Both the position numbers and the translations under genes were made by a program. 51,075 nt of DNA. It comes from a virus. Position 1 is the first letter of the stretch. Every line of letters starts with the position of its first letter. Below are positions 6,737 to 36,851 of this stretch, one piece after another. The DNA lies in IMG/VR virus record IMGVR_UViG_3300037089_000751, positions 1 through 51,075 of that record. One strand, given 5' to 3'. The notes under the pieces were generated by a model that did not search any database, was not told the DNA's origin, and worked only from the letters and a program-made list of their open reading frames with translations.

Positions 6737-6744
6737 GGGCTAAT

Positions 6745-7407
6745 ATGGCAGTTTACGGTGATAATTATGATTTTGGAGATAGCCCTCTTTATAAAGATGA
6801 TGGGACACATGCAAGTTTTTGGGTTTCTAATGTTCCTTCAAATTGGAATAACGCTTTAAATTGGTCTAATACTTCTGGAGGTCCTGGTGGAGATGGAGTT
6901 CCTGATTACGCCTCTGTTGTGACTTACGATCAAAGCGGTATCGGTAATTGTTTAATCGATATTCCTATTTTTCCTTACAGCTTTTATGTAACTCATGGAT
7001 ATGATTCCACCATAACTCAAAATAATAATACAGTACAGGCAGGTTACGGCCTTTTTGATGGAGGAAATTTTGTAGGTAGTCCGACATCCACTGTTAGATT
7101 AACTACCCTTTATCTGGGAGATTGCTTTCTTCAAGATTCCTCGGTTCACATAACACAGGATATGTCCTGTGTCTCTTCTCATAATCAATGGTCCCCTCTG
7201 AATAATTCTAACATAATCATGGATGGAACAGGTAAACAGAATGTTTACGTGGAAATAGGTGGAGTTGTTCCATATCTTACCATAAAAAAAGCTGATACCG
7301 CACAGGTACGTTGTTATGGGGGTCATCTCATTCTTATTAAAGATAATCTTTTAATACAAGATGGTACCTTTAATATGAACGGGCATGATATTCAAGTTGG
7401 AATGTAA
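6745..7407 (+). CDS. Short beta-rich fibre-like protein
   Basis: A 220-residue protein starting at ATG 6745 with AAGGG upstream. The N-terminus has the pattern FWVSNVPSNWNNALNWS, then SGGPGGDGVPDYASVV, which recalls the Asn/Trp/Gly-rich entry segments of phage and adhesin beta-helix proteins. The remainder has short alternating hydrophobic stretches (LTTLYLGDCFL, NVYVEIGG, LTIKKADTA, LILIKDNLLI) expected of a stacked beta-solenoid. There is no enzyme motif. It probably forms a virion adhesin or decoration; specific function unknown. Confidence 0.68.
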   Translation: MAVYGDNYDFGDSPLYKDDGTHASFWVSNVPSNWNNALNWSNTSGGPGGDGVPDYASVVTYDQSGIGNCLIDIPIFPYSFYVTHGYDSTITQNNNTVQAGYGLFDGGNFVGSPTSTVRLTTLYLGDCFLQDSSVHITQDMSCVSSHNQWSPLNNSNIIMDGTGKQNVYVEIGGVVPYLTIKKADTAQVRCYGGHLILIKDNLLIQDGTFNMNGHDIQVGM

Positions 7408-7454
7408 TTTAATCTTTGATTTTTCATTAAAAAATTCATACGGAGTTGTGTCCT

Positions 7455-8807: not shown

Positions 8808-8827
8808 ATGTCTAATGCGAGGAAAAT

Positions 8828-12103: not shown

Positions 12104-12108
12104 AAATT

Positions 12109-15489: not shown

Positions 15490-15494
15490 AAAAT

Positions 15495-19704: not shown

Positions 19705-21090
19705 ATGCCTGTCTATCATTCTGGTAATTTAAGTCAAACAGATCGTCCTCAATATAATTATCCTTTGAGACCGCAGACGAAAGATTTGACCGTGCCTTTG
19801 GCGCCAAGGAATCTTATTATCACTACTCCCTATAATGTGGGGGCAATAGATATACGTTGGGACAGTCCTCTTTTAATTCCACAGAACAGTGGCCTGAAAC
19901 TTTTAGGAGTAAATTTATATCGATCTACGGATTCTCCTTATGGGCCCTATGTAAAAGTGAATGATGTTCCTATAACTGTAATGTTTTATAGGGATCAAAC
20001 AATAGAGGCTCAAATAGTTGATGAGGATGCGACTCCAACATTACATTATAAACTAGAACCGACTAATACGGGTATAGGTAGATGGTTGATAAATTCGGTG
20101 CATAAGCCTATTGTTATTCCAGGAAGTAATGGAGAATACACTACTCGAATTAAGGATGTTCAACTTAAAATTGATAATGGGGATGGAATTTTTTTAAGCA
20201 TGCCCGCATTTTCGGTCGATGGTATAACAGGTGAGATCGAACTTATAAGTGATCCGATTTTTAACAATGACTTGAATCAGATTGTTCCTCCACGTTTGCC
20301 TACTCCTCCTAATGGTCATGTTAAGCTCAGTTATAGTTACATTAAAAATCAAGTTTTGACAGTACTGAATCAAAGAATTTATTATAAGGCAACGACTGTT
20401 GCAGCTGATCCTTCCGATTATTCTAAACAAATAGAGACGCCTTTAGATGAAATTTCTGATCGAAGTCCATTTGATATGGAAGCTATCGATTATATCTGGA
20501 GAGAGGCTATTCTTCGTAACAGGTGGATACTGGAACAAGGTGGAGAACGGGTAAAATTATTTATAAGAAAATGGATGGGGCAAACGTGCCCAAGTCATCA
20601 ATCCAATTATGGCCAGAGTTATAATGATTGTCCTGATTGCCTTGGAACAAATATTGTTGGAGGGTATCTGGGCCCTTATGATTTAATGATAGCTCCTCCC
20701 GAGACCGAGAAAATGGTTGAACTTGCTGACATGGGATTGCATATTCGTTACGACTGGACTACGTGGACGACTAATTGGCCTCTTCTTAATCCTCGTGATG
20801 TGATTGTACGTCAAAATAATGAGCGGTATGCTGTGGGACCTGTGAATCCTCAGGGTTCTCGTGGTGCTATTTATCAGCAACATTTTACAATGTCTTACAT
20901 TGATCAAGGCGATATACGTTATAGAATTAATATCTCAGGTGCTGAGACTGCTCCTCCACAAGAGTGGGATCGGTATCGAACAGAGAATCCTCCTACGCCT
21001 GCTTCTCCGGAAATGCCTCTAAAGCCTACGGTTGATCCTGCTAGAATTATTAGGGGTCGAACGGTAACTTTTGAAAATATTACATTTTGA
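19705..21090 (+). CDS. Conserved-type virion protein with FN3-like and zinc-knuckle motifs
   Basis: A 461-residue protein, ATG 19705 behind AAAGG. Residues about 30-115 form an FN3-like domain (PLAPRNLIITTPYN, IDIRWDSP, LLGVNLYRSTDSPYGPY). Residues 295-312 carry C295-x2-H298 and C309-x2-C312 followed by LGTNIVGGY, a likely zinc-binding knuckle resembling a CPxC...GTGxxGGY pattern seen in large-phage virion proteins. The C-terminal part (NPRDVIVRQNNERYAVGPV) looks like a compact structural domain. It closes the adhesin block before the neck/tail genes, so it might link fibres to the neck or baseplate; this is inference. Confidence 0.7.
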   Translation: MPVYHSGNLSQTDRPQYNYPLRPQTKDLTVPLAPRNLIITTPYNVGAIDIRWDSPLLIPQNSGLKLLGVNLYRSTDSPYGPYVKVNDVPITVMFYRDQTIEAQIVDEDATPTLHYKLEPTNTGIGRWLINSVHKPIVIPGSNGEYTTRIKDVQLKIDNGDGIFLSMPAFSVDGITGEIELISDPIFNNDLNQIVPPRLPTPPNGHVKLSYSYIKNQVLTVLNQRIYYKATTVAADPSDYSKQIETPLDEISDRSPFDMEAIDYIWREAILRNRWILEQGGERVKLFIRKWMGQTCPSHQSNYGQSYNDCPDCLGTNIVGGYLGPYDLMIAPPETEKMVELADMGLHIRYDWTTWTTNWPLLNPRDVIVRQNNERYAVGPVNPQGSRGAIYQQHFTMSYIDQGDIRYRINISGAETAPPQEWDRYRTENPPTPASPEMPLKPTVDPARIIRGRTVTFENITF

Positions 21091-21119
21091 TATTTAATGA
21101 CTTACGAAAGAAGGTAAGT

Positions 21120-21851
21120 ATGGAAAGTATTTTTTCGACACTACGTTTAATTGCAGATGAGATAAAATTTGATCCTAAGAAGCTTACACCTGAGGATATT
21201 GAAAAAATGAAGGTTAAAGTAAATATTCAGGCCTCAGATCTTCTTCATGATCGATATGTAATGGCTTTTATTGTTGAAGCAGGACTCAGAGATGATTTCA
21301 TGAAAATATTTGAAAAAGGTAAGGTAACTTGGAATAAGTTATGGCTTGATGTAAAAGATAAATCTGTGCAATTAGCTATTAAAGGACTCAGAACAGTTGA
21401 ACAAGTTAAAGAGTTTTTGGCTAAGAATCCTAATCTGAAATGGGTTATTTTAGCTGCAATTATTTTAGGCTATCTTGCTCTGCCTCATGAAGCCATGGCT
21501 CAGATCATTGATGCCCCTACTGCAAAGACGTTGGCAAATAATTTATCTGTACATATTAGTCCGAATGCTTTACAAATTACTGCTTCACCAGGATGGATTC
21601 AGGATGTTGTGATGAGAACCGTTCAGGTTCAGGAGGGATCTACTCCAGATAAAATCAATCACGATTTAATACATAATCTCGCAAATATTATATGGGAAAA
21701 AACAAAGATGATGGACCTTAGTGATGATTCTCGAAAAGAGTTTGCAAAGACAGTGTTTCAAGCTGTTTTTAAAGGTGGGTCTCAACTTTTAAAGCAATAT
21801 GGAATTCAATACGTTGATGACCTTGATCCTTTTTCTTCTCTACATTGTTAA
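21120..21851 (+). CDS. Single-pass membrane protein of unknown function
   Basis: ATG 21120 is preferred over an in-frame TTG at 21087 because AAGG (21111-21114) is properly spaced. The 243-residue product is charged and helical in residues 1-106, then has a hydrophobic segment at about 108-124 (WVILAAIILGYLALP) preceded by Lys and followed by HEAMAQ, which looks like a signal-anchor with a possible signal-peptidase-like site in mid-protein. Residues 130-243 would then be extracytoplasmic or lumenal. No family was recognised. A membrane protein between adhesin and tail genes is unusual; a role in lysis, DNA entry or superinfection exclusion is possible but not shown. Confidence 0.72.
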   Translation: MESIFSTLRLIADEIKFDPKKLTPEDIEKMKVKVNIQASDLLHDRYVMAFIVEAGLRDDFMKIFEKGKVTWNKLWLDVKDKSVQLAIKGLRTVEQVKEFLAKNPNLKWVILAAIILGYLALPHEAMAQIIDAPTAKTLANNLSVHISPNALQITASPGWIQDVVMRTVQVQEGSTPDKINHDLIHNLANIIWEKTKMMDLSDDSRKEFAKTVFQAVFKGGSQLLKQYGIQYVDDLDPFSSLHC

Positions 21852-21940
21852 AAATAAATACAATTAATTTTTTAAATAGGGTATGTAATATAGTATTATT
21901 GTATAAATAATTTTCTTTAATGGGGAAGATACAGGCAAAT

Positions 21941-22279
21941 ATGGTTGACATAGAGCGTATAGGTTATCTTGTTAATCTAATCAAGGAGAAGCTTTCAGAT
22001 TCTTACTTGTTAGGGCTTAATAGTAAAACTTATGTGATCGTATTCAAGCCTGAAAAATTGGAAGAAGTAAAAAAAATATTAGAGGTTAATAGTGCAAGTT
22101 ACGGAGGAGTTTGTTTTTATTTTTTTGGTTATTCCGTTGCCTTATGGGATGATCTTTATGATGTGATAGGTTTTAAAGGTGAAGGCGTTTGTTGTGTTGA
22201 GATTTTTGATGGGAGTGAAATTAATAAGGAATTTTATTGGAGGCATAAAGATAATCAATTGGCAAAAATAAAAAGATAA
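21941..22279 (+). CDS. Small protein of unknown function
   Basis: The 112-residue product starts at ATG 21941 with AGG at 21933-21935; an alternative ATG at 21920 would add seven residues but has no ribosome-binding site. The first half is alpha/beta (IERIGYLVNLIKEKL, KTYVIVFKPEKLEEVKKIL) and the second has aromatic strands (VCFYFFGYSVALWDDLYDVI) and two adjacent Cys (VCCVEIF). No membrane segment or known motif. Codon use is AT-rich like its neighbours. Function unknown; flanking AT-rich gaps suggest it is transcribed on its own or with the DIP1984-like gene. Confidence 0.6.
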   Translation: MVDIERIGYLVNLIKEKLSDSYLLGLNSKTYVIVFKPEKLEEVKKILEVNSASYGGVCFYFFGYSVALWDDLYDVIGFKGEGVCCVEIFDGSEINKEFYWRHKDNQLAKIKR

Positions 22280-22282
22280 TTG

Positions 22283-22311
22283 TTTATGCCCATCTTTCAA
22301 ATATGTATAAT
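22283..22311 (+). promoter_or_regulatory. Possible sigma-70-type promoter
   Basis: A perfect TATAAT lies at 22306-22311, 46 bases before the DIP1984-like start. The best -35 at 17-bp spacing (TTTATG, 22283-22288) is weak. AT-rich DNA yields such hexamers by chance, so this is only a candidate. Confidence 0.28.
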
Positions 22312-22357
22312 AGTGTGTAATCAATATTAAATAAAAAATAACAAATGAGGTTTTATT

Positions 22358-22798
22358 ATGAAAATTGTTCGTGCAATGAAAGAATCTTCTCGTATTAAAG
22401 GTGAGATCAAGGAGATTAAAAAGCGGATCACCAAATGCCTGAATACAATAGAAGGTAATGAAGTCGGTGAGAAATTTTCCGATTTGATGACCTTGCTTGA
22501 TGAACGTGTGAATAAACTTATCTCCATAAAGGCTGGCATTATGAAAGCCAATACTGATGGTGATATGTTTAAGGTTATTGCTCGGTTAGGTGAACTTAAA
22601 GGTCATATGGATTTTCTTCGGGAATTGGAACCTAAAAAAGGTGTTCAGATTAGCGGATACAACGATACCCAGGTTCGTTATATTTCTCAGTGGTCCGATG
22701 CTGATAAGAATAAAAGCATCCAGACGACTCAGAATGAAATTAATAAGCTGACCGATCAGCTTGATGATTATAATGCCTCGACTAGCATAGCTCTTTGA
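22358..22798 (+). CDS. DIP1984-like coiled-coil protein
   Basis: A 146-residue helical protein, ATG 22358 behind TGAGG. Length, N-terminal MKIVRAMKESSRIKGEIKEI, the central ISIKAGIMKANTDGDMFKV.ARLGELKG segment and the later YNDTQVRYISQ fit the layout of the DIP1984 family (sometimes labelled septicolysin), found in bacteria and phages, whose function is not established. Heptad patterns at both ends predict an antiparallel coiled coil. It is followed by a 317-bp gene-free region and preceded by a candidate promoter, so it may be expressed separately from the virion genes. Family assignment is from memory of the pattern, not a search. Confidence 0.62.
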   Translation: MKIVRAMKESSRIKGEIKEIKKRITKCLNTIEGNEVGEKFSDLMTLLDERVNKLISIKAGIMKANTDGDMFKVIARLGELKGHMDFLRELEPKKGVQISGYNDTQVRYISQWSDADKNKSIQTTQNEINKLTDQLDDYNASTSIAL

Positions 22799-23115
22799 GT
22801 TTAAACAATATTGCCGTGGTTGCCCGAACCGATCTTTTTCCGAATTACTTGAGGTTTAGCAATAAATTGAGAGTGATGGAGAAAAATATCATACTATGTA
22901 AAAAAGATACAGATATGTTTCTTTTTGGTCTTTAGTTTTATAGTTTTAGGTTTTCGGTCAACATGTGCCAGGAATGGTACTGTTTTTAAGTTTTAGTGGC
23001 TGACCACGGTTTTATTTTCCTCACCAGATCGTAATAAACTATTAATACACCTGTTTCTAATATCCTTTTATACTCGACATTATAAGCATTTTATACTTTT
23101 TAGGGAGGCTATTTT
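22799..23115. other. 317-bp gene-free region with foldable elements
   Basis: No convincing reading frame lies here. CCGTGGT at 22814-22820 is the reverse complement of ACCACGG at 23003-23009 and could extend by two G-U pairs to a 9-bp helix enclosing about 180 nt, followed by TTTTATTTT. Inside are GGTCA/TGACC (22956-22960, 23001-23005; mutually exclusive with that G-U extension), an A/T-rich hairpin near 22903-22927 and the GGAA-loop hairpin listed separately. This could be a structured leader, small RNA or simply a terminator region; the fold is a hand reading. The 3' end carries the AGGGAGG ribosome-binding site of the next gene. Confidence 0.35.
22961..22987 (+). terminator. Candidate intrinsic terminator with GGAA tetraloop
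   Basis: ACA-T-GTGCCA (22961-22970), loop GGAA, then TGGTACTGT (22975-22983) form nine pairs with one bulge and one G-U; T residues run to 22987. It would end transcription from the DIP1984-like gene. The stem is modest in strength. Confidence 0.5.
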
Positions 23116-23508
23116 ATGGATGTTAAGAAAGCTGCGGAAGAACTTCTTAAGATCGCCAATGACATTGAAAAAGATGCAGCAGAAGTTACAAAGTTTGTTT
23201 GTTCATCTTGTAACCATACTGCAACGTTGTCTTCAATCAATGTAAAGCGTCAAGAAGCTGCAAAAACTGCTGGTGATTCAATTCAAGTTGCTGACATTTC
23301 TGTTAATGATAAAGTCCATTGCCCAGCATGTGAAGGCGTGATGGCTTATGCAGAGACTGAAGCCAGCCAACCTTATTATTATGACCCAGATAAAGCTGCT
23401 GTGTCAAAAAAAGAAATTGAAGAAGAAAAAGGCGAAACTCCTAAAGAACAGGCTGAAGAAGAAGAGTCTGGCAAAGAAGATAAAAAAGCCGACTACGATA
23501 GTATCTAA
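23116..23508 (+). CDS. Zinc-ribbon protein with acidic tail
   Basis: A 130-residue protein with a strong AGGGAGG ribosome-binding site. Residues 1-25 are an amphipathic helix (KKAAEELLKIANDIEKDAAEV). C29-x2-C32 and C69-x2-C72 make a likely zinc ribbon with a 36-residue spacer. Residues about 95-130 are Glu/Lys-rich and presumably disordered. The overall plan (helix, two CxxC pairs, charged tail) parallels the larger protein encoded between sheath and tube. Partner and function are unknown; a structural or assembly role is inferred from location. Confidence 0.72.
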   Translation: MDVKKAAEELLKIANDIEKDAAEVTKFVCSSCNHTATLSSINVKRQEAAKTAGDSIQVADISVNDKVHCPACEGVMAYAETEASQPYYYDPDKAAVSKKEIEEEKGETPKEQAEEEESGKEDKKADYDSI

Positions 23509-23541
23509 TAATGTGTTGAAACGTTCTGCGTTGCTCTCCTG

Positions 23542-23577
23542 AAAGGAAGAGGCCTCAAAACCTCTTCCTTTTTATTT
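23542..23577 (+). terminator. Rho-independent terminator
   Basis: An 11-bp perfect stem (23542-23552 with 23561-23571), 8-nt loop and T-rich tail to 23577. It separates the zinc-ribbon gene from the following helical protein and ATPase. Confidence 0.92.
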
Positions 23578-23627
23578 GCCCTCCTCGATAATAATCTACT
23601 AATGGTCATTACTTATCGGTGACTCTT

Positions 23628-24191
23628 ATGGTTAAATTTATGGGAAACTCTACTGAAAGAGTGCCTATTAAGGACCTTAATGACGTCATTTATTATCGCC
23701 AGATAAAACAATACTCAGATGCAGAATATGAAGCATCAAAAGATTTAAAGAAAGAAAAAGCAAAAGGACGTATTGTGGTTCTGGAACAGGCTGAAGGACT
23801 TAGAGGTTCAGATATGGATCAAGTTCAATATCTTAGAGAAAGAGTCTCCAGTCCGATAATAAATGCGGAAGATTTAAAATTGGTTCTTAGAGGAATTCTT
23901 CCAGAAATAACAAACAAGACCGCTCCTGATATCAAGAGTGCCGTCCGAGAAATTGCCCCTTTGATAGTGGAAATGGTTCGACAAGAGTTATCAAGGTTCA
24001 ATTTTAGCTCTTATAATGCTCCAATTAAAGATGATTCACCAGCCCAGTTTCAGGGGCCAGAGTATATACCTACAGTTTCGACTGAAGGTTTAATAAGTAA
24101 TGTTGAAGCTAAAAAGACAGAAGTGTCGTCTGATGCTGCTCAGGATGCCCTTGCAGCTTTGAGACGATTGAATAGTATAAAAAATCCATAA
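23628..24191 (+). CDS. Helical protein of unknown function upstream of the ATPase
   Basis: ATG 23628 is preferred to GTG 23619, which has no ribosome-binding site; GGTGA at 23618-23622 precedes the ATG. The 187-residue protein starts with a short beta segment (MVKFMGNSTERVPIKDLNDVIYY), then a Lys/Glu helix, a central helical part (AEDLKLVLRGILPEITNKTAPD...EIAPLIVEMVRQEL, about 85-120), a Pro/Ser-rich linker and a C-terminal helix (AAQDALAALRRLNSI). It sits 25 nt before the actin-like gene, so it may be an adaptor or regulator of that ATPase, in the way small partner genes accompany ParM-type actins. That is inference only. Confidence 0.68.
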   Translation: MVKFMGNSTERVPIKDLNDVIYYRQIKQYSDAEYEASKDLKKEKAKGRIVVLEQAEGLRGSDMDQVQYLRERVSSPIINAEDLKLVLRGILPEITNKTAPDIKSAVREIAPLIVEMVRQELSRFNFSSYNAPIKDDSPAQFQGPEYIPTVSTEGLISNVEAKKTEVSSDAAQDALAALRRLNSIKNP

Positions 24192-24216
24192 TAAAATCTA
24201 TTACAGAGGAGGGTTT

Positions 24217-25236
24217 ATGTCAGTAGGTTGTGATATCGGGACATGTTTTTTGGTTTCAGCAAGACAAGACAGTAATAACCAGATTCAATACAAGACTATT
24301 CGTGATGCCTTTATTGATATGGATAATGAGCCTCAGACTAAGCAAATGCTTAAACTGTCTCAGACAAATTTCATAGAGACTCCTGATAAGATTTTTGTTA
24401 TTGGCGATGCCGCAACCACCATGGCAAATATTTTCAAGAGAGAAGCTCGTCGCCCGCTTGCAAAAGGAGTTATTTCTCCTGGAGAACTCGAAGCTGAAAA
24501 AATATTACTGGTCCTTCTCGAAAATATTATGGGAAAAGCGATCGCTCCTAATGAAACATGTTTTTATTCCATTCCTGGGATCCCGGTGGATCGGGCGATG
24601 GATATTGTTTACCACTCAGCAATGTTTTCGAAGCTTATTGGAACCCTTGGATATAAACCTGTAGCTTTAAATGAAGCTGCAGCAATAAGTTATAGTAATG
24701 CAGCGAAGGAAAACTTTTCTTCCTTATCGATTTCGATGGGTGCTGGTATGGTTAACGTATGCCTTATGTTTCAAACAATGATTGGAATGTCTTTTTCAAT
24801 TATTAATTCAGGTGACTGGCTCGATGAGTCTGCTGCCAAGGCCACGGGAACAACAGCAAGTCGAATTCAAGCCATTAAAGAACGTGGTTTGAATCTTCTT
24901 GACCCTAATGATGGGGATCCAAAGACTTTTAGGGAACGTGAGGCCCTTGTTATCTATTACAAGAGCTTGGTTCTTCGAGTCCTTGATACTGTGAAAAACG
25001 AGTTTATAAAGCATCAGGGAGCAATTGATCTTCCAAATGCAATACCGATCATTCTTTCGGGAGGAACAGCACTTGCAAAAGGATTTAAAGATCTTTTTGA
25101 AGCGGGCTTTAGTTCCGTTAAAGATAAATTTCCGATTCCAGTTTCTGAAATTCGCATGGCCACAGATCCTCTTAATGCTGTAGCTCAAGGGCTTCTGGTT
25201 GCCAGCATGAACTATGATGAAGGACAAAAGAGCTAA
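24217..25236 (+). CDS. Actin/Hsp70-fold ATPase (ParM/MreB-like)
   Basis: A 339-residue protein, close to typical bacterial actins, with a strong GAGGAGGG site. Phosphate-1 motif: CDIGTCFLVSA, with D6, G8 and T9. Phosphate-2 region: SISMGAGMVNV (about 171-181). Adenosine motif: IILSGGTALAKGF (S281-G282-G283-T284). Between them are the expected connecting segments (CFYSIPGIPVDRAM, LGYKPVALNEAAAI, INSGDWLDESAA). The acidic residue usual at the start of phosphate-2 is Ser173 here, so hydrolysis may be altered. Family members polymerise with ATP and move or position plasmids, organelles or cell-wall machinery. Its stop overlaps the next gene's start (TAATG), tying it to tail neck synthesis. Filament formation is not shown. 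Confidence 0.82.
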   Translation: MSVGCDIGTCFLVSARQDSNNQIQYKTIRDAFIDMDNEPQTKQMLKLSQTNFIETPDKIFVIGDAATTMANIFKREARRPLAKGVISPGELEAEKILLVLLENIMGKAIAPNETCFYSIPGIPVDRAMDIVYHSAMFSKLIGTLGYKPVALNEAAAISYSNAAKENFSSLSISMGAGMVNVCLMFQTMIGMSFSIINSGDWLDESAAKATGTTASRIQAIKERGLNLLDPNDGDPKTFREREALVIYYKSLVLRVLDTVKNEFIKHQGAIDLPNAIPIILSGGTALAKGFKDLFEAGFSSVKDKFPIPVSEIRMATDPLNAVAQGLLVASMNYDEGQKS

Positions 25237-26582
25237 TGTATCAAAACCTTTTATATGCTGTTAAGAACAGGTTCATGGATGAAATTGAACTTGCTTTTGA
25301 CCAGCATCCAGCATTTGATGCTAAGGTAAAAGTTCATAATAAATACCCTTATCTTGAACGTGTGCAGTATGGGTTTGTTTTTAGGAATGCTTCAGCGTCT
25401 CAGATAAGGCTTTCGCCTGATAATTTTATGTCTGATCTCTTTTCTCATGTGCAGTTAGGCCGTCAGGGAAATTATCCTGGTGTATCTATCGAATGGGCAA
25501 GAGAGAATGAAGGTTATGTTACTGAATATGCAACAGAAGACGTATCTTCTCAATTGGATCCAACTCAAAGGCAGTTTAAAACTTCAGGGCCCATAACTGC
25601 AGGGCCTGGAGAAACTCATTATGCCGATGACCCAGGACAGGTCTGTGTGACTGTTAATGGGGTTCCTCAGGTAGCTGATTCGGTTGATGGAAAAAATGGT
25701 ATTGTTTTAATCCAATCGAGTCCAGGACTCGGGGATGTGGTATTGGTATCCTACCATAAAAGAAGGATTTCAATTCCTGCTATATACGTGATTGATTTTA
25801 TTGAGGATAATCAGTTGGTTATCGCTCCTATTTACGTTGTCGAAAAAGAACTTCTTTTTGCGAGCACTACAGGAACCGAGACCACAGTCAATTTAGCTAA
25901 CGATCATGTTGATGCAAATACTGAGGACATTTATTTAACGTATAAGAATGGGATAATCATTGATACTCTGGTTAAGGGTGTGGATTATTCTATCAACAAT
26001 ACGACAGGTCTTATTACTTTTCTTTTGCCTCTACCTAAAAATTACCAAATAGTTGCTGATTATCATTGGCAACCTGTAAACTATTATAATGGTCCGTATG
26101 AGTTTAAGGAGTTTCAAGAATTTCATACTTTGATTCCTGGGGTAATTATTTCGATTGGTCGGCGGGCGAAGAAGGGGGACCAGCAATTTATTTATGTTTC
26201 TCAATTTCGAGAACAGCAGGCCAAGATCTATGGGGGTCATTGGACAATGGTCTTTGATGTTGCAGCTATTGCCAAGGATCCAATGCAGATGGCACAGATG
26301 TCGGACCATGTGGTTTCCGAATTATGGGGTGTTCGTAAAAATATCCTTGAGTATGAAGGTATTACTTTAAATTCGGTAGAGCCTTCTGGTGAGACTGAAG
26401 AGACCCATATAGAGACCACAGGAGATCTTTATTACGAGTCTTCTATTTCTATTAATGTCCAGACGGAGTGGCAGAGTATTGTTCCTTACGTTGGAAATTT
26501 GAGACTAAAGAATATTATTCTAATCCCATCTCTGGCACCTGTTTTAAAAGCTCCTGTTCTTGGTTATGAGAGGCTGACATAA
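25236..26582 (+). CDS. Tail-terminator / neck-like virion protein with beta insertion
   Basis: A 448-residue protein. The C-terminal third (about 330-440: GGHWTMVFDVAAIA, ELWGVRKNILEYEGITL, then VNVQTEW-like ISINVQTEW) resembles tail-terminator or completion proteins that cap the tube and sheath. Residues about 101-178 are a beta domain (EDVSSQ, VTVNGVPQVADSVDGKNG, GDVVLVSYHKRR) almost repeated in the sheath gene. A second beta unit follows (about 208-290, KGVDYSINNTTGLITF). Position directly upstream of the sheath supports the neck assignment. Family size is normally about 150-250 residues, so this protein carries a large insertion. Start overlaps the ATPase stop. Confidence 0.65.
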   Translation: MYQNLLYAVKNRFMDEIELAFDQHPAFDAKVKVHNKYPYLERVQYGFVFRNASASQIRLSPDNFMSDLFSHVQLGRQGNYPGVSIEWARENEGYVTEYATEDVSSQLDPTQRQFKTSGPITAGPGETHYADDPGQVCVTVNGVPQVADSVDGKNGIVLIQSSPGLGDVVLVSYHKRRISIPAIYVIDFIEDNQLVIAPIYVVEKELLFASTTGTETTVNLANDHVDANTEDIYLTYKNGIIIDTLVKGVDYSINNTTGLITFLLPLPKNYQIVADYHWQPVNYYNGPYEFKEFQEFHTLIPGVIISIGRRAKKGDQQFIYVSQFREQQAKIYGGHWTMVFDVAAIAKDPMQMAQMSDHVVSELWGVRKNILEYEGITLNSVEPSGETEETHIETTGDLYYESSISINVQTEWQSIVPYVGNLRLKNIILIPSLAPVLKAPVLGYERLT

Positions 26583-26637
26583 ACTAATAATCTTTTAATT
26601 TGTTATTGTTCATATCCTTATTGAAAGGAAAATCCAG

Positions 26638-27066
26638 ATGCCATTATACGAATATGTATGTAAAGTTTGCGGTTGTGAGTTTGAAGAACTTGTTAGTGCC
26701 AAGGAAGAAAGCACTACTCGGCCTTGTAAAAATTGTGATAATGGTGCCGAACGAAAGATGAGCAGATTTGCTTCAGTCATGGCGGGTGGAAGTTCTACTG
26801 AACCAGTAGACATGACCATTGGTCGGGAAGCAGATAAACGTTGGCAGATGCATTATGAAAAGCAATCTCAGAGGCGAGGGGCAGAACAGTTAAAAACATT
26901 TGAACTGCCTAAGACTGAAGATGGAAAGTTTATGCCCGTTATGGGGCTTGGAGATAAAGTCCAGAAAGAGAAGAGACAAGAGTATACTACGGCTTTACAG
27001 GAGCACAGACAGGAAAGGGTTAAGAAGGGTCAGGATCAGTTTAGTGGTGAAGCGGGTGCTTTTTAG
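26638..27066 (+). CDS. FmdB-type zinc-ribbon protein
   Basis: A 142-residue protein, ATG 26638 with GAAAGGAAAA upstream. The opening MPLYEYVCKVCGCEFEEL is characteristic of FmdB-type zinc ribbons; ligands are C8, C11, C30 and C33. Residues about 40-142 are charged, helical and low in hydrophobics, ending with GEAGAF. In bacteria FmdB-type ribbons are of unclear function and often called putative regulators; phages also carry them. Located between neck and sheath genes, it may regulate late transcription or act as a small virion part; neither can be decided here. Confidence 0.82.
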   Translation: MPLYEYVCKVCGCEFEELVSAKEESTTRPCKNCDNGAERKMSRFASVMAGGSSTEPVDMTIGREADKRWQMHYEKQSQRRGAEQLKTFELPKTEDGKFMPVMGLGDKVQKEKRQEYTTALQEHRQERVKKGQDQFSGEAGAF

Positions 27067-27190: not shown

Positions 27191-29992
27191 ATGGCTATAG
27201 GCCCTTTTCCAAGTTTCGCGTTTCCTGGCGTTTATACACAAACGCTTGATCAGGCGCCGACTGCAACAGCCGCTGGTGAGCTTAGAATTCCAGCCTTTAT
27301 TGGTGTTGCCGCCGATACGATCACGACTACGAATTATGAGATGATTCGTGGTTCGAGTTCCATGGCGGATAATCCTATCGTAGATGAAGACGTATCAAGC
27401 CAGTTTACTGGTTCTGAGCGAGTTGTTCAGGTTACTTATTACCCTATTGTCTCGGGTAATGGTACAGGTTCAACGACAAACGATATCAATAATGTTAGAG
27501 TTACAGTTAATGGCGATCCAGTTCCCGTAGCTTCCGTAAATGGAACCACTGGACAGATTTATCTCGTCCAGATTCCTTCTGCTGGAGATACTGTACTTGC
27601 ATCTTATTTCTTCAAACGTCTTGATGATCATCATATCAATGAAGATTTGAGCGATCAGGTCGATGGTCTTACAAAGACTATTCAGACTCATTATTATCCA
27701 ATTGTTCGTGGTGATAATGGTGGATTAACAACAACTGATCCCACAAACGTCAGTGTGACAGTTAATGCCATTGCTGTTGCGGCAACAGCAGTTGATGGAG
27801 ACATAGGTTTAATCACTCTGCCTTCAGCTCCAGCTCTTGGTTCGGTTGTTCTGGTTACTTATTATTCAAATGAATTACAACATACTTCTGATATTCTTCC
27901 TTCACCCTATGTTGCCAGTATCGACAAAGTTGGGTTTGCTCCTGGTACATCAGATTTTGTTGAAGGTACAGATTTTATTCTTGATACAACAGGTAATTTC
28001 AGTACGCTAAACTGGGGACAATCTTTTAAGATTGCTTCTGGTCAGCATACTATTGGATTTACATATTTTGATGATAGTGTGATAGTTGGAACTCTTTATG
28101 ATTCTCATAACTATCGTAGACTATCTTCAACGGTACCTGATAGCACAAAAACGACTTTTGCTATCGAAGCAATTCCTATGACTGGTGAAGGCTTAGCTGT
28201 TCCGACAGAAAATCCCCTTTTGCTTACAGGTTATTTTGGAACTTCTCCAACAGATGCAACAGTCATAGACATTATTAAAGTTGAAGATGTCACTAAGACT
28301 ATTCAGGTTACCGATCAGACTACTCCTCTTGCTGGAACAAATGTGTACGTAACAGAGTATTCAAACAGTCTTCCTGATGATGTCTGGACGTTAACAGATG
28401 TTTCCTCGGGTGGTCTCGGTGTTGGTTTGTATACAATCACTGGAGTCAATTCGGGTGTAGCGATGGATGTACAATGGTCGGGTGGTACGGATACTTCCGT
28501 TTCAGATCCTGACTTTGGAACAGAAAATGTTACATATCCTGCTGGAAACGGTCCTACAAATAGTGATGCACAAGTAGTTCCTGGATATGCCGTTGCAGAA
28601 ACAGTTCAATTAACGTTCCAAGATGCAAATACTTATGTAGTAACTTCAAATGTTGCTAATGGGTCAGGTAGTAATGGCGATAATACAGGGTATCTAAATC
28701 AGACTTATATCGATAAGAAGACTGGTTTTAGAGTTACTGTAAATCAAGGAAATCTAGTAACTTATCAGGCTGCTGATCATATAGGCTATGTAGTATCTCC
28801 TTTGATCGCTGTTTCAAATACTCCAACTCGAGCAATTCCAGGCCTTAAAGTAAGAGTACAGACTACTTTAGGAATCAATCCTGGAGATACAGGTATTATT
28901 AATACGTATGCTCGAAGTGGTCAAGAACCAAACATAGGAGATTTTTACTACGTAACATTTGAGGCTACGAAACAGTTTGATTCCAATGGATTAACCAAGG
29001 CTGCTGTGTATACCAATGAGGCAAACGTTTTTGCCAGCACAGGATCTTTGACCATTAATAATAAACTGGGACTTGCTGCTCATTTGGCCTTCCTTAATGG
29101 CGCCACTGCAATAATTCTTCTTCAGATTCAGAAGACTGTGGGTGGAACTGATGCCCCTGATTCGAGATACATTGCAGGTATAGATTATTTCAATGAGCCT
29201 CTTGCTGGAGATGTTCGTCCAGTTCTTATTGAGCCTGTTACGACATCTACGAATGTTATTACTTACTTGAAGAGTTCGAATATCATTCAATCAGGTATTC
29301 GTTACGGTAATGAGCATATGTCTTATTTCGGATTTGCTCTTAATACAAGCCCTACGACAGCTCAGACCTATGCCAAAGCAATAAATAGTGAGCGTATGAT
29401 TGCTATTTATCCTGATGGTGGAATAATCACTCTGACGGATGCTCTTGGTAATAACGTTGAGTATCTGGTTGATGGATCCCTGCTCGCGGCCGCAGTTGCT
29501 GGTCGTGATGTATCGCCTGCTTTTGATGTTGCAGAGCCTATCACGAAGAAACCAATTACAGGTATCACACGGTTATATCGTCGGTTGGATTCGGTAACAG
29601 CTGCACAGACAGCGAATTCAGGTATTACTCTTCTTGAAGAATTGGCTGCGGGAATTCAGATTAAGTTTGGATTGACCACAGATACGTCTTCAGTGTTGAC
29701 TCGGACACCTTCGGTTATTCGTACAAAGGATTTTGTACAAAGAGGTGCTCGGTCGATATTGAGTCCATATATTGGAACGAAGTTGCTGACACAGAGAACC
29801 TCAGAGATTGTATCGACTTTGAGTTCTTATCTGTCTGCTCTGCAACAGGCACAGATTATTCAGGCTTACTCCAATGTAACGGCAGTACAAGACCCGAGTG
29901 ATCCTACGATTATCAATGTGCAGGCGTTTTACGCTCCAATATTCCCGTTGCTGTGGATTGTGATTACTTTCAATCTTCGGACGAGTGTTTAA
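27191..29992 (+). CDS. Contractile tail sheath protein, enlarged
   Basis: A 933-residue protein with CGGAGG at 27178-27183. The N-terminus (FPSFAFPGVYTQTLDQ) and the C-terminal 230 residues (YPDGGIITLTDALG..., QRGARSILSPYIGTKL, ending FYAPIFPLLWIVITFNL) match contractile sheath proteins. Typical sheaths are about 400-700 residues; here residues about 64-228 contain two copies of a beta domain (VDEDVSSQ...YFFKR; INEDLSDQ...TYYSNE), with further beta inserts to about 470. These probably decorate the outer face. Sheath subunits assemble around the tube and contract on host contact. The gene is followed at once by its own terminator. Confidence 0.9.
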   Translation: MAIGPFPSFAFPGVYTQTLDQAPTATAAGELRIPAFIGVAADTITTTNYEMIRGSSSMADNPIVDEDVSSQFTGSERVVQVTYYPIVSGNGTGSTTNDINNVRVTVNGDPVPVASVNGTTGQIYLVQIPSAGDTVLASYFFKRLDDHHINEDLSDQVDGLTKTIQTHYYPIVRGDNGGLTTTDPTNVSVTVNAIAVAATAVDGDIGLITLPSAPALGSVVLVTYYSNELQHTSDILPSPYVASIDKVGFAPGTSDFVEGTDFILDTTGNFSTLNWGQSFKIASGQHTIGFTYFDDSVIVGTLYDSHNYRRLSSTVPDSTKTTFAIEAIPMTGEGLAVPTENPLLLTGYFGTSPTDATVIDIIKVEDVTKTIQVTDQTTPLAGTNVYVTEYSNSLPDDVWTLTDVSSGGLGVGLYTITGVNSGVAMDVQWSGGTDTSVSDPDFGTENVTYPAGNGPTNSDAQVVPGYAVAETVQLTFQDANTYVVTSNVANGSGSNGDNTGYLNQTYIDKKTGFRVTVNQGNLVTYQAADHIGYVVSPLIAVSNTPTRAIPGLKVRVQTTLGINPGDTGIINTYARSGQEPNIGDFYYVTFEATKQFDSNGLTKAAVYTNEANVFASTGSLTINNKLGLAAHLAFLNGATAIILLQIQKTVGGTDAPDSRYIAGIDYFNEPLAGDVRPVLIEPVTTSTNVITYLKSSNIIQSGIRYGNEHMSYFGFALNTSPTTAQTYAKAINSERMIAIYPDGGIITLTDALGNNVEYLVDGSLLAAAVAGRDVSPAFDVAEPITKKPITGITRLYRRLDSVTAAQTANSGITLLEELAAGIQIKFGLTTDTSSVLTRTPSVIRTKDFVQRGARSILSPYIGTKLLTQRTSEIVSTLSSYLSALQQAQIIQAYSNVTAVQDPSDPTIINVQAFYAPIFPLLWIVITFNLRTSV

Positions 29993-31128: not shown

Positions 31129-31800
31129 ATGGCCCGTGATACTGATAGTTACATTTTTAGAAAAGGTGTAACTCCGAATACCCTCTCGGTAATTAGTTCT
31201 AAGAACCGAATATTTGCCTATAATTCTACTGGTAAACAAGTGCAGATAGGTGTGATCTCAACATTTGATCCATCTGAGGCACGTACGATAGAACCTATAC
31301 GTGGTATTGGTTTTGGGGACCAAATTGCTGAGTTGGTGCCTGGGGTTACGGATCCAATGACAATATCGGTTACTCGGACAGCCCTATACTTGGCGAATAT
31401 CTTTCAAGTTTTTGGATATAAGGCAGGTATGGACGGCATTGCCCGGTCTCTGAAGCATCATCGTTGGCCGTTTGATATTCGCCAGGAGCTTGTTTTTAGT
31501 GCTCTGGCAGCAGGAATGACAGATGGTAGTGTTGTTCCGAATATTAATCAGGTAACGAAGGACTCATTGGACGAAAAAGGTATTAATAACCAGTACGCAA
31601 TCGTGACTTTTTACGAAGCTTGCTGGATTTCGGATTACTCTGTTTCTTATGCTTCTGATACCGCGATGGTACAGGAGACAGTAACGATTAACGTGTCTGA
31701 TATACTTGCTGGACCTGGAAAATATCCATACACATCAAGTGAAGTAGAGCCGTTCTCGGTACTGGATCAACAGCCGTCGATGTCGAAGCGTTTCGTATAA
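31129..31800 (+). CDS. Tail tube protein
   Basis: A 223-residue protein, ATG 31129 behind GGGAGG. The sequence EPIRGIGFGDQIAELVPGVTDPM, here cited as RGIGFGDQIAELVPG, then SVTRTALYLANIFQVFGY and HHRWPFDIRQELVFS, and late ACWISDYSVSYASDT, resembles tube subunits of large myoviruses. Size and the late-gene position between sheath and tape-measure modules agree. The protein would stack as hexameric rings to form the inner tube through which DNA passes. A GC-rich terminator follows, as expected for a very abundant protein. Confidence 0.78.
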   Translation: MARDTDSYIFRKGVTPNTLSVISSKNRIFAYNSTGKQVQIGVISTFDPSEARTIEPIRGIGFGDQIAELVPGVTDPMTISVTRTALYLANIFQVFGYKAGMDGIARSLKHHRWPFDIRQELVFSALAAGMTDGSVVPNINQVTKDSLDEKGINNQYAIVTFYEACWISDYSVSYASDTAMVQETVTINVSDILAGPGKYPYTSSEVEPFSVLDQQPSMSKRFV

Positions 31801-31822: not shown

Positions 31823-31850
31823 TCGGGCCCTTTAAAGAGGGCCCGATTTT
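31823..31850 (+). terminator. GC-rich terminator after the tube gene
   Basis: TCGGGCCC (31823-31830) pairs perfectly with GGGCCCGA (31839-31846), extendable inward by a T-A pair, followed by TTTT. The core is nearly the same as that of the sheath terminator. Confidence 0.87.
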
Positions 31851-32005: not shown

Positions 32006-32614
32006 ATGGGAATTGATAGCATCCTCAATGCGGTTAGAAAGTCATTTTCTCCTCGTAAAAATGTTGATTTTGAAGAACAAGGGTTACATTTTGAACTCGA
32101 ACCTCTTATCTCTACAGAAGAAGTGAAAATATTAGAGGCTTGTAAGGACATTGATCAAACTCAGTATGTAGAAGCTCTGAAAAGAAATACGCTGGCTTGC
32201 AGTATAAAAAGGATGATTTTAAAAGAACTTGATGCAAGCGGTAAAGAGGTAATTACTGATATAGATCTTTCTAAGGAATTGATTTCTTATGAGGATGAAG
32301 GTAAAACTAAAACTAAGTCTAAATTTCTTTTCATGGTTGATTATCTGGGGCAGTGGCCATCTTCTATGGTAGATTTATTATTTGATGTTTTTTCGAATAT
32401 GGTACAAGAGACTGAAAACAAAATAAGAAATAATGCAAAGTATGAAGTATTCACAGTTTCTGAGAAACCTTTAGAAGAAAAAGATACGAAGATAAAGCCG
32501 GTCATAGAGGAAGAAGAGGATAATGAGAATTTAACCGAGACAGAAATATTGCAGAAAAAAGTAAACCAGGAGATTGCTGAAGAAGACGAAAAATTAGCAA
32601 AAACTGATATTTAA
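32006..32614 (+). CDS. Putative tail assembly chaperone (first of pair)
   Basis: A 202-residue protein, ATG 32006 behind AAAGGAAAG. Residues 1-140 are mostly helical (STEEVKILEACKDID, KRNTLACSIKRMIL, FMVDYLGQWPSSMVDLLFDVF); residues 150-202 are Glu/Lys-rich and likely disordered. Placement between tube and tape measure is where tail chaperones of myo- and siphophages lie, which coat the tape measure during assembly. The stop overlaps the next start (TAATG). Assignment rests on position and general features, not a recognised motif. Confidence 0.6.
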   Translation: MGIDSILNAVRKSFSPRKNVDFEEQGLHFELEPLISTEEVKILEACKDIDQTQYVEALKRNTLACSIKRMILKELDASGKEVITDIDLSKELISYEDEGKTKTKSKFLFMVDYLGQWPSSMVDLLFDVFSNMVQETENKIRNNAKYEVFTVSEKPLEEKDTKIKPVIEEEEDNENLTETEILQKKVNQEIAEEDEKLAKTDI

Positions 32615-33651
32615 TGGAACGAATAGAAGCTTATCAAATTATATCTGATATGGTATTTAAGGGCTTTCTTAGCATGCATGCTAATTTTGCGGGTAAGCTT
32701 TTTGTATTTAAGACTGTTAATAATAAGGAATACGATTTAATAAAGTATTATTCTGGATCTTTGGACAGGCCTAATTATGAAAGCATATTTAATTCCTATT
32801 ATATGGCTTTTAGTGTTTTTATGGTAGGTCAGGAAAATGTCATTATAAATCGTGATGAGTATATTAAAAAGCTATATCAATTTTTTATTTCTATGCCTGC
32901 TGTTTTTTGTAAGGAGATTCTTAAAGAACTCGAATTATTGAAAGTTAAAATGTACTTAGCTTTAGAGTTTGTTGAAGGATTTTCTTATGCTTTTCAATAT
33001 CGAAGATTGTGGAAGATTTTAGGCTTAAATTTTTTAAGTGGTATTGCTGGATCTGAGAATCTTGGTTTAAATGTTTTTCAGGAAAATTGGATTTATTTAA
33101 ATAAAACTCTTGATGAGGAAGAAGCTTATAACCAGCAGTTTTCTTTTGCTGTTTTAATAGCATCGGCCTCCAATGCAAAGGGAGCCAAGCAATTGAGAGC
33201 GAAGCATGATGCTAGCTTACAAACCATGGAAGATAAGAGGAAGAAATTATCGAGAGAAGGTCCAATTAAAAGTACTAATTGGACTGCTATGGGATGGGCA
33301 GCTCCTGTGGATACTGCTGAGGAACTTGTGGCTGAACTTGAACGCCAAATGCACGGTTTGAAAGATCGGCACGATAAATTTATTGATGATTATTTACATC
33401 AATTAGAGAAAAATGCTGAAGAGCATAATCGAAAGGCTCAGGAAAAAATTGAGGAATCTAATAAGAAACATGAAGGCGAAAAACCTTTAAGTGGTGAACA
33501 AAGAGTACTTACTCCAAAAGAGATGTCAGAATTAATGTCTCAAAAGAGTAATAATCTTATTATTCTTCCTCCTGAAGATGTAGCAACGCCTGAAGATAAA
33601 GAGCGTTATTTATCAAAAGTTGGTGGAAAAGTTTTAACCGGTAGGAAATAA
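32614..33651 (+). CDS. Putative tail assembly chaperone (second of pair)
   Basis: A 345-residue protein translated in the -1 frame relative to the previous gene and coupled by a 1-nt overlap. Residues 1-165 are compact and rich in aromatic helices (AYQIISDMVFKGFLSM, SYYMAFSVFMVGQENV, LVKMYLALEFVEGFSYA-type LALEFVEGFSYAFQYRRL). Residues about 195-345 are charged coiled coil (LVAELERQMHGLKDRHDKF, NRKAQEKIEESNKKHE) ending in a Pro/Lys-rich tail. The layout suits a tape-measure chaperone or a baseplate assembly factor. No family recognised. Confidence 0.58.
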   Translation: MERIEAYQIISDMVFKGFLSMHANFAGKLFVFKTVNNKEYDLIKYYSGSLDRPNYESIFNSYYMAFSVFMVGQENVIINRDEYIKKLYQFFISMPAVFCKEILKELELLKVKMYLALEFVEGFSYAFQYRRLWKILGLNFLSGIAGSENLGLNVFQENWIYLNKTLDEEEAYNQQFSFAVLIASASNAKGAKQLRAKHDASLQTMEDKRKKLSREGPIKSTNWTAMGWAAPVDTAEELVAELERQMHGLKDRHDKFIDDYLHQLEKNAEEHNRKAQEKIEESNKKHEGEKPLSGEQRVLTPKEMSELMSQKSNNLIILPPEDVATPEDKERYLSKVGGKVLTGRK

Positions 33652-33653
33652 AT

Positions 33654-36600
33654 ATGGCTGATCCGACCCCTGCAAATATGAAAGCAATGGAAGAAGCGCT
33701 AAAAAAAGTACAGCGCCAACTGGAAAATGTTGAGAAAGCCACTAAAAAGACAACGCAAAATATTAATAAGAATTTCCAAAATGCTGCAGGTGGTACTGAA
33801 TATTTTGGAAAAAGATTAGAATATGCTGAAGAGACTATAGACGATATAGCCAAGAATATGAAGAAAATCCATCTGGAAAAAGGATTGCCAGTAGGGAAAG
33901 TTATTATAGTAAACAAGCAGATGGCTGTTCTTCAAAAAAGAATTGAACATATTAAAAATTTGAAGGGGCCTTTTAATGCTGCTTCTTTAGATAAACAGAA
34001 AAAAAGAATTGCTACGATAACGAAAGAAGCTGTTTCTCTAAATAAAAATGTTTCTGGTGGTGTAAAAGTATCAACTCAGCGATTTGCTGATATGGCCGAG
34101 GGTGCTGGATCTTTTAAAGATTTATTTCATTCTTTAAAAGGTTCTCCTAAGGATATGCTAAAAACAGCAGAAGGGGCTGGAGAAGTTGCAGATAAATTAA
34201 AAAGTATGGGAGGAATGGCTAAAGGTTTAGGTAGTGCTCTTGGAGGAGTTTCTAAAATCTTTGGAGGTCCAGCGGGTATAGCTATGGCTGCGGGGAAAGC
34301 CTTATTTGATATAACTGTACAAGCAGATACCTTTGTTAAAAATGCTAATAAAGGGTTTGCTAGTATTCGTGGACCTGATATTATGACGAGTGATGTTGAA
34401 GGGCAATTTAAGGAATTTAATGACCAGATTTATAACGCTTCTGCTAATATTAGGGATGGCTTAAATGCAGATGCCATAAGAGGTTTTATGGAAGCCTTGA
34501 GTCAATCTGGTTATAATATAACTAGGTTACAAGGGGGCCTTACCACTTATAGAACCGCTGTGGATGTAGCAGCAAAAGCCAGTAAAAGTTTAGGGGTTGA
34601 TATAGTTCAGGTTGGTGCTTATATGGGCACTTTACTGAATGATTTTAGAGAGGATTTAGCAGAAGTCGATAAATCTTTTGTTCAAGTTGCTTTTGACGCT
34701 AAAAAATCAGGTATGTCAACTAATAATTTTTGGAATACCGTTCAGAATGCTACAGCATCTTTAACTCTTTATGGTGTTAAAATTGATTCGGCAGGAAAGT
34801 TACTTAAAACTTTCAGTCAAAATCAAATAGGGGGTGTAAAAGATGCCGAGGCTGCTGCCCAGGATATGTTATCTGTATTTAAATCTACCGATCGTGCTCA
34901 AAGTGCTTTAATCATGCAGATGTCTAAGTCTGGAGGGTTCGATCTTGCAGGGGCCTTTCAAAAAAAGGCTGGAGAACAAGGGACTAAAGCAACTAAAATA
35001 AAAGAAGAAATTAAACTTGTTGAAGCTAAGCCCAGAACTGAAGAAAATTTATCTGCTTTGGATAAATTGCATACTGATCTTGTAAATGCTGAAAAAGATC
35101 AAGCTAATTATACAAAAGCAACGATTTTGGCCCAAAAAGGAGATTATGTTGGATTAGGTACTTATTTTGGGGATTTGGCCAATAATGTATCCGATATAGT
35201 TCCAGCCTTGCTTAAAGGTATGATTCCTGGGTTAACTAATATAGGTAAGATAGATGAGCATAATTTGGCTGTTTTAGAAAAGACGAGTCAATTAACAGGG
35301 TTATCTGTTCCGGCTTTACGAACAATTGTTAAGAATGCTCAATTTGTAAATAAGGAATTAAGTGATCTTTCGGATTACATGGGTGATTTTGGTGGTAAAT
35401 TAATTGATGCCACGGATGAGACAAAAAAAGGTATTGGGGATGCTATAACTGAAATGGATAGTGGTAATGAAAAAGGTTTTGAAGATCTTAATAACGCTTT
35501 ATTACAAGCTGGAATGGATCCAGTCCAGGCTAAGGAAATGGCAAATTTAGCTAAAAGTAATGAAGTTATTAGGGCTATTCTTAAGAAGACTTTAGTGCAG
35601 GATAAAGTTGTTGCTAAAAAAGAATTGGTTAATTTACAAAAGACACTTAAATCGGATGATGTTAGTAATAAGGCTGCTTTTAATAGCATTGATGACCAAA
35701 AGGCCTCTGCTGCAGAAATGTCTAAGAAAAGTGATGATACCTTTAAAAAGATAACTTCTTTGACTCTTTCAAGCCAAGAGACCATGGATATCATGGGAGA
35801 TGAGGCTAAATACCGTTTATATAGTACTACTTTATTTAAAGGTATGAATAAAGGTATAGGCTTTATAGCTAAATTTTTGACTAAGGCTTTTGGAAGTAAA
35901 GTTAAAGGTGTTGATGAGTATATAAGTCCTGAAGAAGAAGAAAAAATGCAACAGGACGCTTCAGATAAAATTACAAATGAAATAAAAAATGTAAAACCTG
36001 ATGATGTTACAAAAGCTGTTGATGATCTTAATAAAAAGTTTCCCAAGGATGCTAAATTAAGTCCTTCTCTAATGCAGGCTATAGTTGGTCATGAATCTGG
36101 TGGAAATGCTATGGCCGTTCCTAAAGATAAAGCAGGGAATGTCTTATCTACTGCTCGTGGTCCAATGCAAGTTATTAAAGATACTGCACAAAGGGTTGTT
36201 AAAGAATCAGGAGACGTTCTGGGAGTTAAGGGAGGTAAAAGTGGAACTTTACCTACTTATGGATCAGATTATAAAATGACTGCTCCAGGAACAGTCGACC
36301 TTACAGATACTAAAACAGGATTAGCTGTTGGAGGTCGAGTACTTCAAAAAGAGTTAACTAAATATGGTGGAGATCCAAAGAAAGCTATTGCCGCTTATTT
36401 TCAAGGTGACACAGTTGTAGATAATGCAATAAAGGCAGATAGTAAAGATTGGATGAGTCATTTAGTTAATGATAAGGGTGAAAATGTATCTTCTCAAGTT
36501 GCTGCTTACATAAATGATGTTAATAAGCGTATTATGGATTCAGCCATAGGATCTACTCCTACGGCTACTCCTACAAAAGCTACCATGGGAATGCCTGAAA

Positions 36601-36851
36601 GGGTGACCTCTCCTGGTATTGTTCAGCTACATTCTGGAGAATCTATTTTTCCTAGTGCTGGTAATTCTAGAATGCGGACAACACCTCTTTTAAATGGAGG
36701 TGCTATGAATAGTGCTTTAGGCGGAGCTGTAGGTGGTGGAGGGAAAACCATTAATATAAACGTTTCGGCTACAGAAAAAGATCTGGCCCAAAGAATAGCT
36801 AATGAAGTTAGAGGAGTACTATATAAAGAACAATTGACAGGAATGGCATAA
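33654..36851 (+). CDS. Tape measure protein with lytic transglycosylase domain
   Basis: A 1065-residue protein with AGGA spaced eight bases before ATG 33654. Residues 1-130 are coiled coil; about 180-220 are Gly/Ala-rich and hydrophobic (GLGSALGGVSKIFGG, GIAMAAGKALF), as expected for a segment entering the host membrane. Residues about 800-960 form an SLT-like peptidoglycan-cleaving domain: catalytic-type Glu at E814 in GHESGGNAM, then RGPMQV at about 835 and AIAAYFQG. The C-terminus (VQLHSGESIF, INVSATEKDLAQRIANEV) is typical of tape measures. It sets tail length and probably digests cell wall after contraction. Confidence 0.88.
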   Translation: MADPTPANMKAMEEALKKVQRQLENVEKATKKTTQNINKNFQNAAGGTEYFGKRLEYAEETIDDIAKNMKKIHLEKGLPVGKVIIVNKQMAVLQKRIEHIKNLKGPFNAASLDKQKKRIATITKEAVSLNKNVSGGVKVSTQRFADMAEGAGSFKDLFHSLKGSPKDMLKTAEGAGEVADKLKSMGGMAKGLGSALGGVSKIFGGPAGIAMAAGKALFDITVQADTFVKNANKGFASIRGPDIMTSDVEGQFKEFNDQIYNASANIRDGLNADAIRGFMEALSQSGYNITRLQGGLTTYRTAVDVAAKASKSLGVDIVQVGAYMGTLLNDFREDLAEVDKSFVQVAFDAKKSGMSTNNFWNTVQNATASLTLYGVKIDSAGKLLKTFSQNQIGGVKDAEAAAQDMLSVFKSTDRAQSALIMQMSKSGGFDLAGAFQKKAGEQGTKATKIKEEIKLVEAKPRTEENLSALDKLHTDLVNAEKDQANYTKATILAQKGDYVGLGTYFGDLANNVSDIVPALLKGMIPGLTNIGKIDEHNLAVLEKTSQLTGLSVPALRTIVKNAQFVNKELSDLSDYMGDFGGKLIDATDETKKGIGDAITEMDSGNEKGFEDLNNALLQAGMDPVQAKEMANLAKSNEVIRAILKKTLVQDKVVAKKELVNLQKTLKSDDVSNKAAFNSIDDQKASAAEMSKKSDDTFKKITSLTLSSQETMDIMGDEAKYRLYSTTLFKGMNKGIGFIAKFLTKAFGSKVKGVDEYISPEEEEKMQQDASDKITNEIKNVKPDDVTKAVDDLNKKFPKDAKLSPSLMQAIVGHESGGNAMAVPKDKAGNVLSTARGPMQVIKDTAQRVVKESGDVLGVKGGKSGTLPTYGSDYKMTAPGTVDLTDTKTGLAVGGRVLQKELTKYGGDPKKAIAAYFQGDTVVDNAIKADSKDWMSHLVNDKGENVSSQVAAYINDVNKRIMDSAIGSTPTATPTKATMGMPERVTSPGIVQLHSGESIFPSAGNSRMRTTPLLNGGAMNSALGGAVGGGGKTININVSATEKDLAQRIANEVRGVLYKEQLTGMA

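Follow-up and report, generated by a model that had tools for sequence, protein, structure and literature searches.

What is an actin-like gene doing among the tail genes of a virus? The window analyzed here, the full 51,075 nucleotides of IMG/VR record IMGVR_UViG_3300037089_000751, carries such a gene on its plus strand. An earlier note, written from the letters alone, had described it as an actin/Hsp70-fold ATPase with an altered phosphate-2 motif and suggested that it could position virions, assemble tails or serve as a nucleotide-gated scaffold.

Fold and family of the actin-like protein

The open reading frame is real and correctly placed. It starts with ATG, and its stop codon overlaps the start of the next gene (TAA/ATG, read as TAATG, 25234-25238). 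The gene, its ribosome-binding site and its nucleotide-site motifs are as follows:

24207..24213, + strand: Shine-Dalgarno AGGAGGG of the actin gene, a strong ribosome-binding site (read from the sequence)
24217..25236, + strand: predicted volactin-family actin-like ATPase, 339 aa (PF25216 E 1.8e-63; AF2 pLDDT 94.7; Foldseek MreB/MamK)
24229..24243, + strand: phosphate-1 motif CDIGT, residues 5-9 (D6, G8 and T9 invariant in 118/118 relatives)
24673..24675, + strand: Glu153, equivalent of the MamK catalytic Glu143 by alignment to MamK (invariant in 118/118)
24727..24747, + strand: phosphate-2 motif SISMGAG, residues 171-177, with Ser173 (24733-24735) where Asp is usual
25057..25068, + strand: adenosine motif SGGT, residues 281-284 (G282 and G283 invariant; T284 in 116/118)

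We found that the Pfam Volactin profile (PF25216) matched the protein at full length (residues 1-329) with an E value of 1.8e-63 and 215 bits against a curated cut-off of 35, so the actin assignment is not a chance result; the match to MreB_Mbl was weak (29.7 bits), leaving Volactin clearly the better one. An AlphaFold2 model built on an 81-sequence alignment was confident (pLDDT 94.7, pTM 0.91), and its best PDB matches in Foldseek were Mbl, MreB, MamK, BeeR and actin, with E values down to 3.7e-15 and TM scores of 0.66-0.70. Structure prediction and alignment with MamK thus agree with the fold proposed earlier, and the CDIGT and SGGT motifs are intact as the note had read them. Judged by sequence and predicted structure, the gene product is an actin-like ATPase and belongs with the volactins known from archaea.

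The same profile scored 216-259 bits in 17/17 large phage records, while among 14 control genomes it passed its cut-off in Haloferax volcanii only. PHROGs gave no actin match. To our knowledge, volactin has been described from archaea only. Cellular relatives were found on Haloarcula and Natrinema plasmids, in Thermoplasmatota, and in metagenome-assembled genomes (MAGs) of Acidobacteriota and Pseudomonadota; the Pseudomonadota gene (locus L010, 5059-6030) is next to a chromosomal gene for a DEAH helicase and a gene for a pentapeptide-repeat protein, and its presence there means that volactin is not confined to archaea. In Haloferax volcanii, volactin HVO_2015 forms dynamic filaments in vivo, the sole member known to do so, and affects cell shape (PMC10869688).

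The serine of phosphate-2

The acidic residue that opens phosphate-2 in the actin superfamily is absent from the protein, and profile alignment places Ser173 opposite MamK Asp161 and Glu153 opposite MamK Glu143. The altered motif pointed out in the note is therefore present, but it does not belong to this gene in particular: Ser173 is invariant in 118/118 distinct relatives (viral, archaeal and bacterial), and L015 and L016, the nearest haloarchaeal relatives of Haloferax volactin in our set, have this Ser. We thus rejected the view of Ser173 as an oddity of the window gene. D6, G8, T9, E153, G175, G177, N180, D200, D203, K221, G282 and G283 are likewise invariant in all 118, whereas residues 10-11 of phosphate-1 are CF in the window's clade and MN in most relatives (M 95/118, N 99/118). 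On this alignment, the change from Asp to Ser is an old trait of the volactin family. Since every volactin relative examined lacks the acidic residue, Ser173 is no ground for excluding the gene from the superfamily, and its invariance across the family gives no phage-specific argument.

Changes at D161 or E143 abolish ATPase activity in actins, and the D161A change in MamK stabilises the filaments, which lose their dynamics (PMC5059902). Haloferax volactin is nevertheless dynamic (PMC10869688). The family-wide Ser may slow ATP hydrolysis or change its trigger while polymerisation is not lost. How an actin family can function when Ser replaces the Asp that the MamK ATPase requires is a question for biochemistry.

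A partner gene and a tail cassette

The genes around the actin in the window are these:

19705..21090, + strand: A461, virion/minor tail protein, upstream (33.7% to LR745208.1; Tunturi_5 gp322 'minor tail protein'; phrog_1004 weak)
23116..23508, + strand: Zn1, small Cys-rich protein (17/116 loci, nearer relatives only)
23619..24191, + strand: B190, orphan partner gene just upstream of the actin (102/103 viral loci with room)
25236..26582, + strand: C448, tail-terminator family, overlapping the actin stop (tblastn to Tunturi_5 gp324 'tail terminator', E 4e-7)
26638..27066, + strand: Zn2, FmdB-like zinc ribbon protein (PF09723 E 3.1e-10; 85/99 loci with room)
27191..29992, + strand: tail sheath (34% to Tunturi_5 'tail sheath' over 98% of the query; PF17482 22.7 bits, below the cut-off of 26.9)
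31129..31800, + strand: E223, virion structural protein at the tail-tube position (52% to Tunturi_5 gp329 'virion structural protein'; phrog_985 weak)
32006..33651, + strand: F202 and G345, tail-chaperone-position genes (profiles match phage G gp181, noted 'tail assembly chaperone')
33654..36851, + strand: large tail protein with a transglycosylase SLT domain (PF01464 E 4.2e-11)

The C448 profile matched Tunturi_5 gp324 (1.1e-27) and phage G gp177 (1.9e-16). The TAATG overlap had been read as coupling to a neck-like protein; the overlap is there, and with a family annotated as tail terminator in Tunturi_5 the description of the neighbour was close rather than exact. Iterated-profile cross-hits hinted that A461, C448 and the sheath might be paralogues, a relation that we rejected (hhalign A4 against A6, probability 0.5%); the piece common to their profiles probably corresponds to a small DUF2460-like beta module. 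The AlphaFold2 model of A461 was weak (pLDDT 64), and PDB profile searches with A461, C448, the sheath, E223, G345 and B190 returned nothing useful.

Several other features of the window were recorded. Upstream of the neck and tail genes (4842-19703) are large fibre-like genes whose products contain collagen, NosD/beta-helix and PKD domains, and the neck region encodes a DUF6847 protein (22358-22798; PF20935, above cut-off) that was not found in the other loci. Between the sheath and the tube-position gene, a 350-aa protein contains Lys/Glu/Asp-rich tandem repeats with periods of 45 and 39 bp (30663-30875). A strong GC-rich stem-loop with a 9-bp stem (TCGGGCCC...GGGCCCGA, 31823-31846) separates the tube-position and chaperone-position genes and may act as a terminator or attenuator.

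Scanning IMG/VR with a profile revealed relatives of the actin on at least 569 viral contigs; those listed include contigs of 200-529 kb, and a 619-kb contig was reached through A461. Among 108 distinct viral loci, the arrangement seen most often is A461, B190, actin, C448, Zn2 and sheath. In loci whose flanks are long enough, B190 lies directly upstream of the actin on the same strand in 102 of 103 (median gap 4 bp), and A461 (77/84), C448 (86/103), Zn2 (85/99) and the sheath (76/93) are frequent neighbours that share the strand of the actin with one exception. When A461 was used as the seed instead, 74 of 77 loci had both the actin and B190 and three had neither (Fisher 1.4e-5, for loci that are not independent of one another). 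About 100 other viral loci thus share this neighbourhood, and both fold and setting bear out the description of an actin/Hsp70-fold ATPase embedded in tail genes.

The arrangement varies at its edges. The C448-Zn2-sheath block has relocated in some lineages, where B190 and the actin remain beside A461 or the tube-position genes. Linkage to the sheath thus has exceptions: the block is found elsewhere in L143 and L078, and the divergent actin of G171 is distant from the A461 gene and has no detectable B190. These exceptions count against the cytoskeleton reading given below. Locus L183 was considered as a loss of the actin and rejected, as B190-actin-C448-Zn2-sheath is present on that contig at a distance of about 37 kb. 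The divergent actin of the 595-kb LR756511.1 still has a P2 gpI-like baseplate gene on one side and the terminase on the other, and one 297-kb huge-phage contig encodes two actins of the volactin family, L141 and L152, separated by about 160 kb.

In the phylogeny, a branch with 100/99 support separates cellular volactins from 63 of 64 viral sequences, the exception being the long-branch LR756511.1 protein. Distances among actins track those among A461 (Mantel r 0.86), C448 (0.87), Zn2 (0.79) and B190 (0.75); co-divergence with the sheath was weaker (r 0.30), as calculated on a crude C-terminal alignment. Together, the viral clade and the matched distances show long vertical co-inheritance of the actin rather than recent insertion. 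Estimates of dN/dS were saturated, and the single pair above 70% DNA identity gave dN 0.19 and dS 2.2.

Two cultured phages, both complete, have the tail module in the absence of the actin. The complete genome of Tunturiibacter phage Tunturi_5 encodes A461 (gp322), the C448-family tail terminator (gp324), Zn2 (gp325), sheath (gp326) and E223 (gp329), and Bacillus phage G encodes A461 (gp175), C448 (gp177), sheath (gp178), an E223 homologue among its tube-position proteins, and chaperones. Profile searches found neither an actin in Tunturi_5 nor a volactin actin in phage G, and neither phage has B190. Tunturi_5 has a contractile tail of 167 nm (PMC11924767). A contractile tail can therefore be built when both genes are missing, and the actin is not an obligatory tail component. 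This disfavours the earlier proposal of a scaffold needed for tail building, and the joint absence of the two genes means that actin and B190 behave as a cassette. Phage G gp506 (BFVD G3MAP7) has an actin/Hsp70 fold (Foldseek E 6.3e-11, 11% identity) and is not a volactin by profile.

Candidate roles and known systems

B190 consists of a conserved N-terminal domain, a variable linker and a conserved C-terminal segment with a FIP-like motif followed by a basic end; domain and profile searches found no recognised domain and no DNA-binding domain. We infer from this layout the shape of a tether, and contact with the actin is a guess from synteny. Our preferred reading, a tentative one, is that the actin forms a viral cytoskeleton which is accessory and made late and which works on virions or tails by way of B190, rather than being a brick of the tail; virion positioning is thus the one of the earlier suggestions that we favour. 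The volactin-type actin would bind ATP and polymerise, and it would be produced late along with the tail proteins. B190 would serve as its adaptor, with one end on the neck or tail and the other on the actin, and the filament may serve to place, group or move the tails or maturing virions of these large phages, in a role comparable to that of PhuZ tubulin or of AlpC with AlpA. This suggests that hundreds of viral contigs, many of them from huge phages, may have their own actin cytoskeleton acting on particles. A bolder form, which we regard as doubtful, is that a widespread huge-phage lineage has a virion-dedicated actin cytoskeleton in which B190 tethers the neck or tail to filaments and the Ser site sets an unusual hydrolysis cycle.

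The clustering with tail genes could equally reflect a virion component or a lineage-specific assembly factor. The actin might be ATP-gated and act as a chaperone or a length or joining factor at the neck or tail terminator, much as closterovirus Hsp70h is an integral virion protein required for tail assembly (PMC3622897). The actin lies between A461 and the tail terminator with a stop/start overlap in the window, it is the most conserved protein of the module, and Hsp70h was among the viral Foldseek matches. However, that likeness is of superfamily fold only (12-17% identity), and Tunturi_5 and phage G form contractile tails from the same module with no actin, so we consider this role somewhat unlikely. 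We give appreciably less weight to a ParM- or AlpC-like segregation or positioning of phage DNA by a gene merely parked in the late operon. Such a role is the best known for a phage actin (AlpC, PMC4446434) and B190 occupies the position of an adaptor, but B190 has no detected DNA-binding domain, the actin is linked to and co-diverges with tail genes, and no iteron array or centromere-like repeat was found in the window (21000-26700), in L013 or in L023.

Remodelling of the host, with the viral actin disturbing MreB or altering cell shape, seems similarly improbable, even though archaeal volactin affects cell shape (PMC10869688) and the nearest fold is MreB. The late-module position and the dedicated phage partner point to virions instead. 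Host effectors are usually early genes, which also counts against this role. Least credible of all is an ATPase-dead actin relic with a purely structural function: MamK and other actins depend for ATPase activity and dynamics on the Asp that Ser173 replaces (PMC5059902), and the window's clade has CF where most relatives have MN, but the remaining core nucleotide-site residues are invariant and a family member, Haloferax volactin, polymerises and depolymerises dynamically in vivo (PMC10869688).

The phage actins that we know of serve DNA positioning or segregation. We found no report linking volactin-type actins with phages in a literature of which our coverage is incomplete, so novelty is provisional; work on huge and jumbo phages mentioned tubulins, and we found no such actin there. 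The tubulin/FtsZ model PF00091 had no match in the 17 large actin-bearing records, and PhuZ may be too divergent for this model. What appears new here is a volactin-type actin kept through deep divergence in a huge-phage tail cassette, nearly always beside one partner gene. Since the pair is kept in huge phages and absent from cultured relatives of the tail module, whether virions are organised with actin becomes a testable question.

Compared with known systems, the window protein resembles volactin (HVO_2015, PF25216) in its full-length family match, its fold class and the phosphate-2 Ser that it shares with the haloarchaeal relatives. On the other hand, it has only about 30-37% identity to cellular relatives, belongs to a separate viral clade and sits in a tail cassette with B190, with no link to archaeal cell shape. 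MamK and MreB are the closest solved structures and align across most of the protein, but at 16-19% identity, with MamK D161 replaced by Ser, and they are cellular proteins rather than products of phage tail genes. The tail modules of Tunturi_5 and phage G match that of the window in the order of their A461, C448 and sheath homologues and also include E223 homologues; they differ in lacking the actin and B190. Closterovirus Hsp70h is likewise an actin/Hsp70-fold ATPase tied to a virion tail, but it is an Hsp70 of an unrelated RNA virus and an integral part of the virion. AlpC of prophage CGP3 is a precedent for a phage-encoded actin beside a partner gene, although AlpA binds DNA and its genes are early (PMC4446434), whereas here the pair is part of a tail cluster and searches with B190 gave no DNA-binding domain. 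PhuZ of nucleus-forming jumbo phages is also a virus-encoded cytoskeleton in large phages, an analogy of function only, as PhuZ is a tubulin and the window protein an actin; if a virion-dedicated actin cytoskeleton exists, it would be the actin counterpart of the PhuZ spindle.
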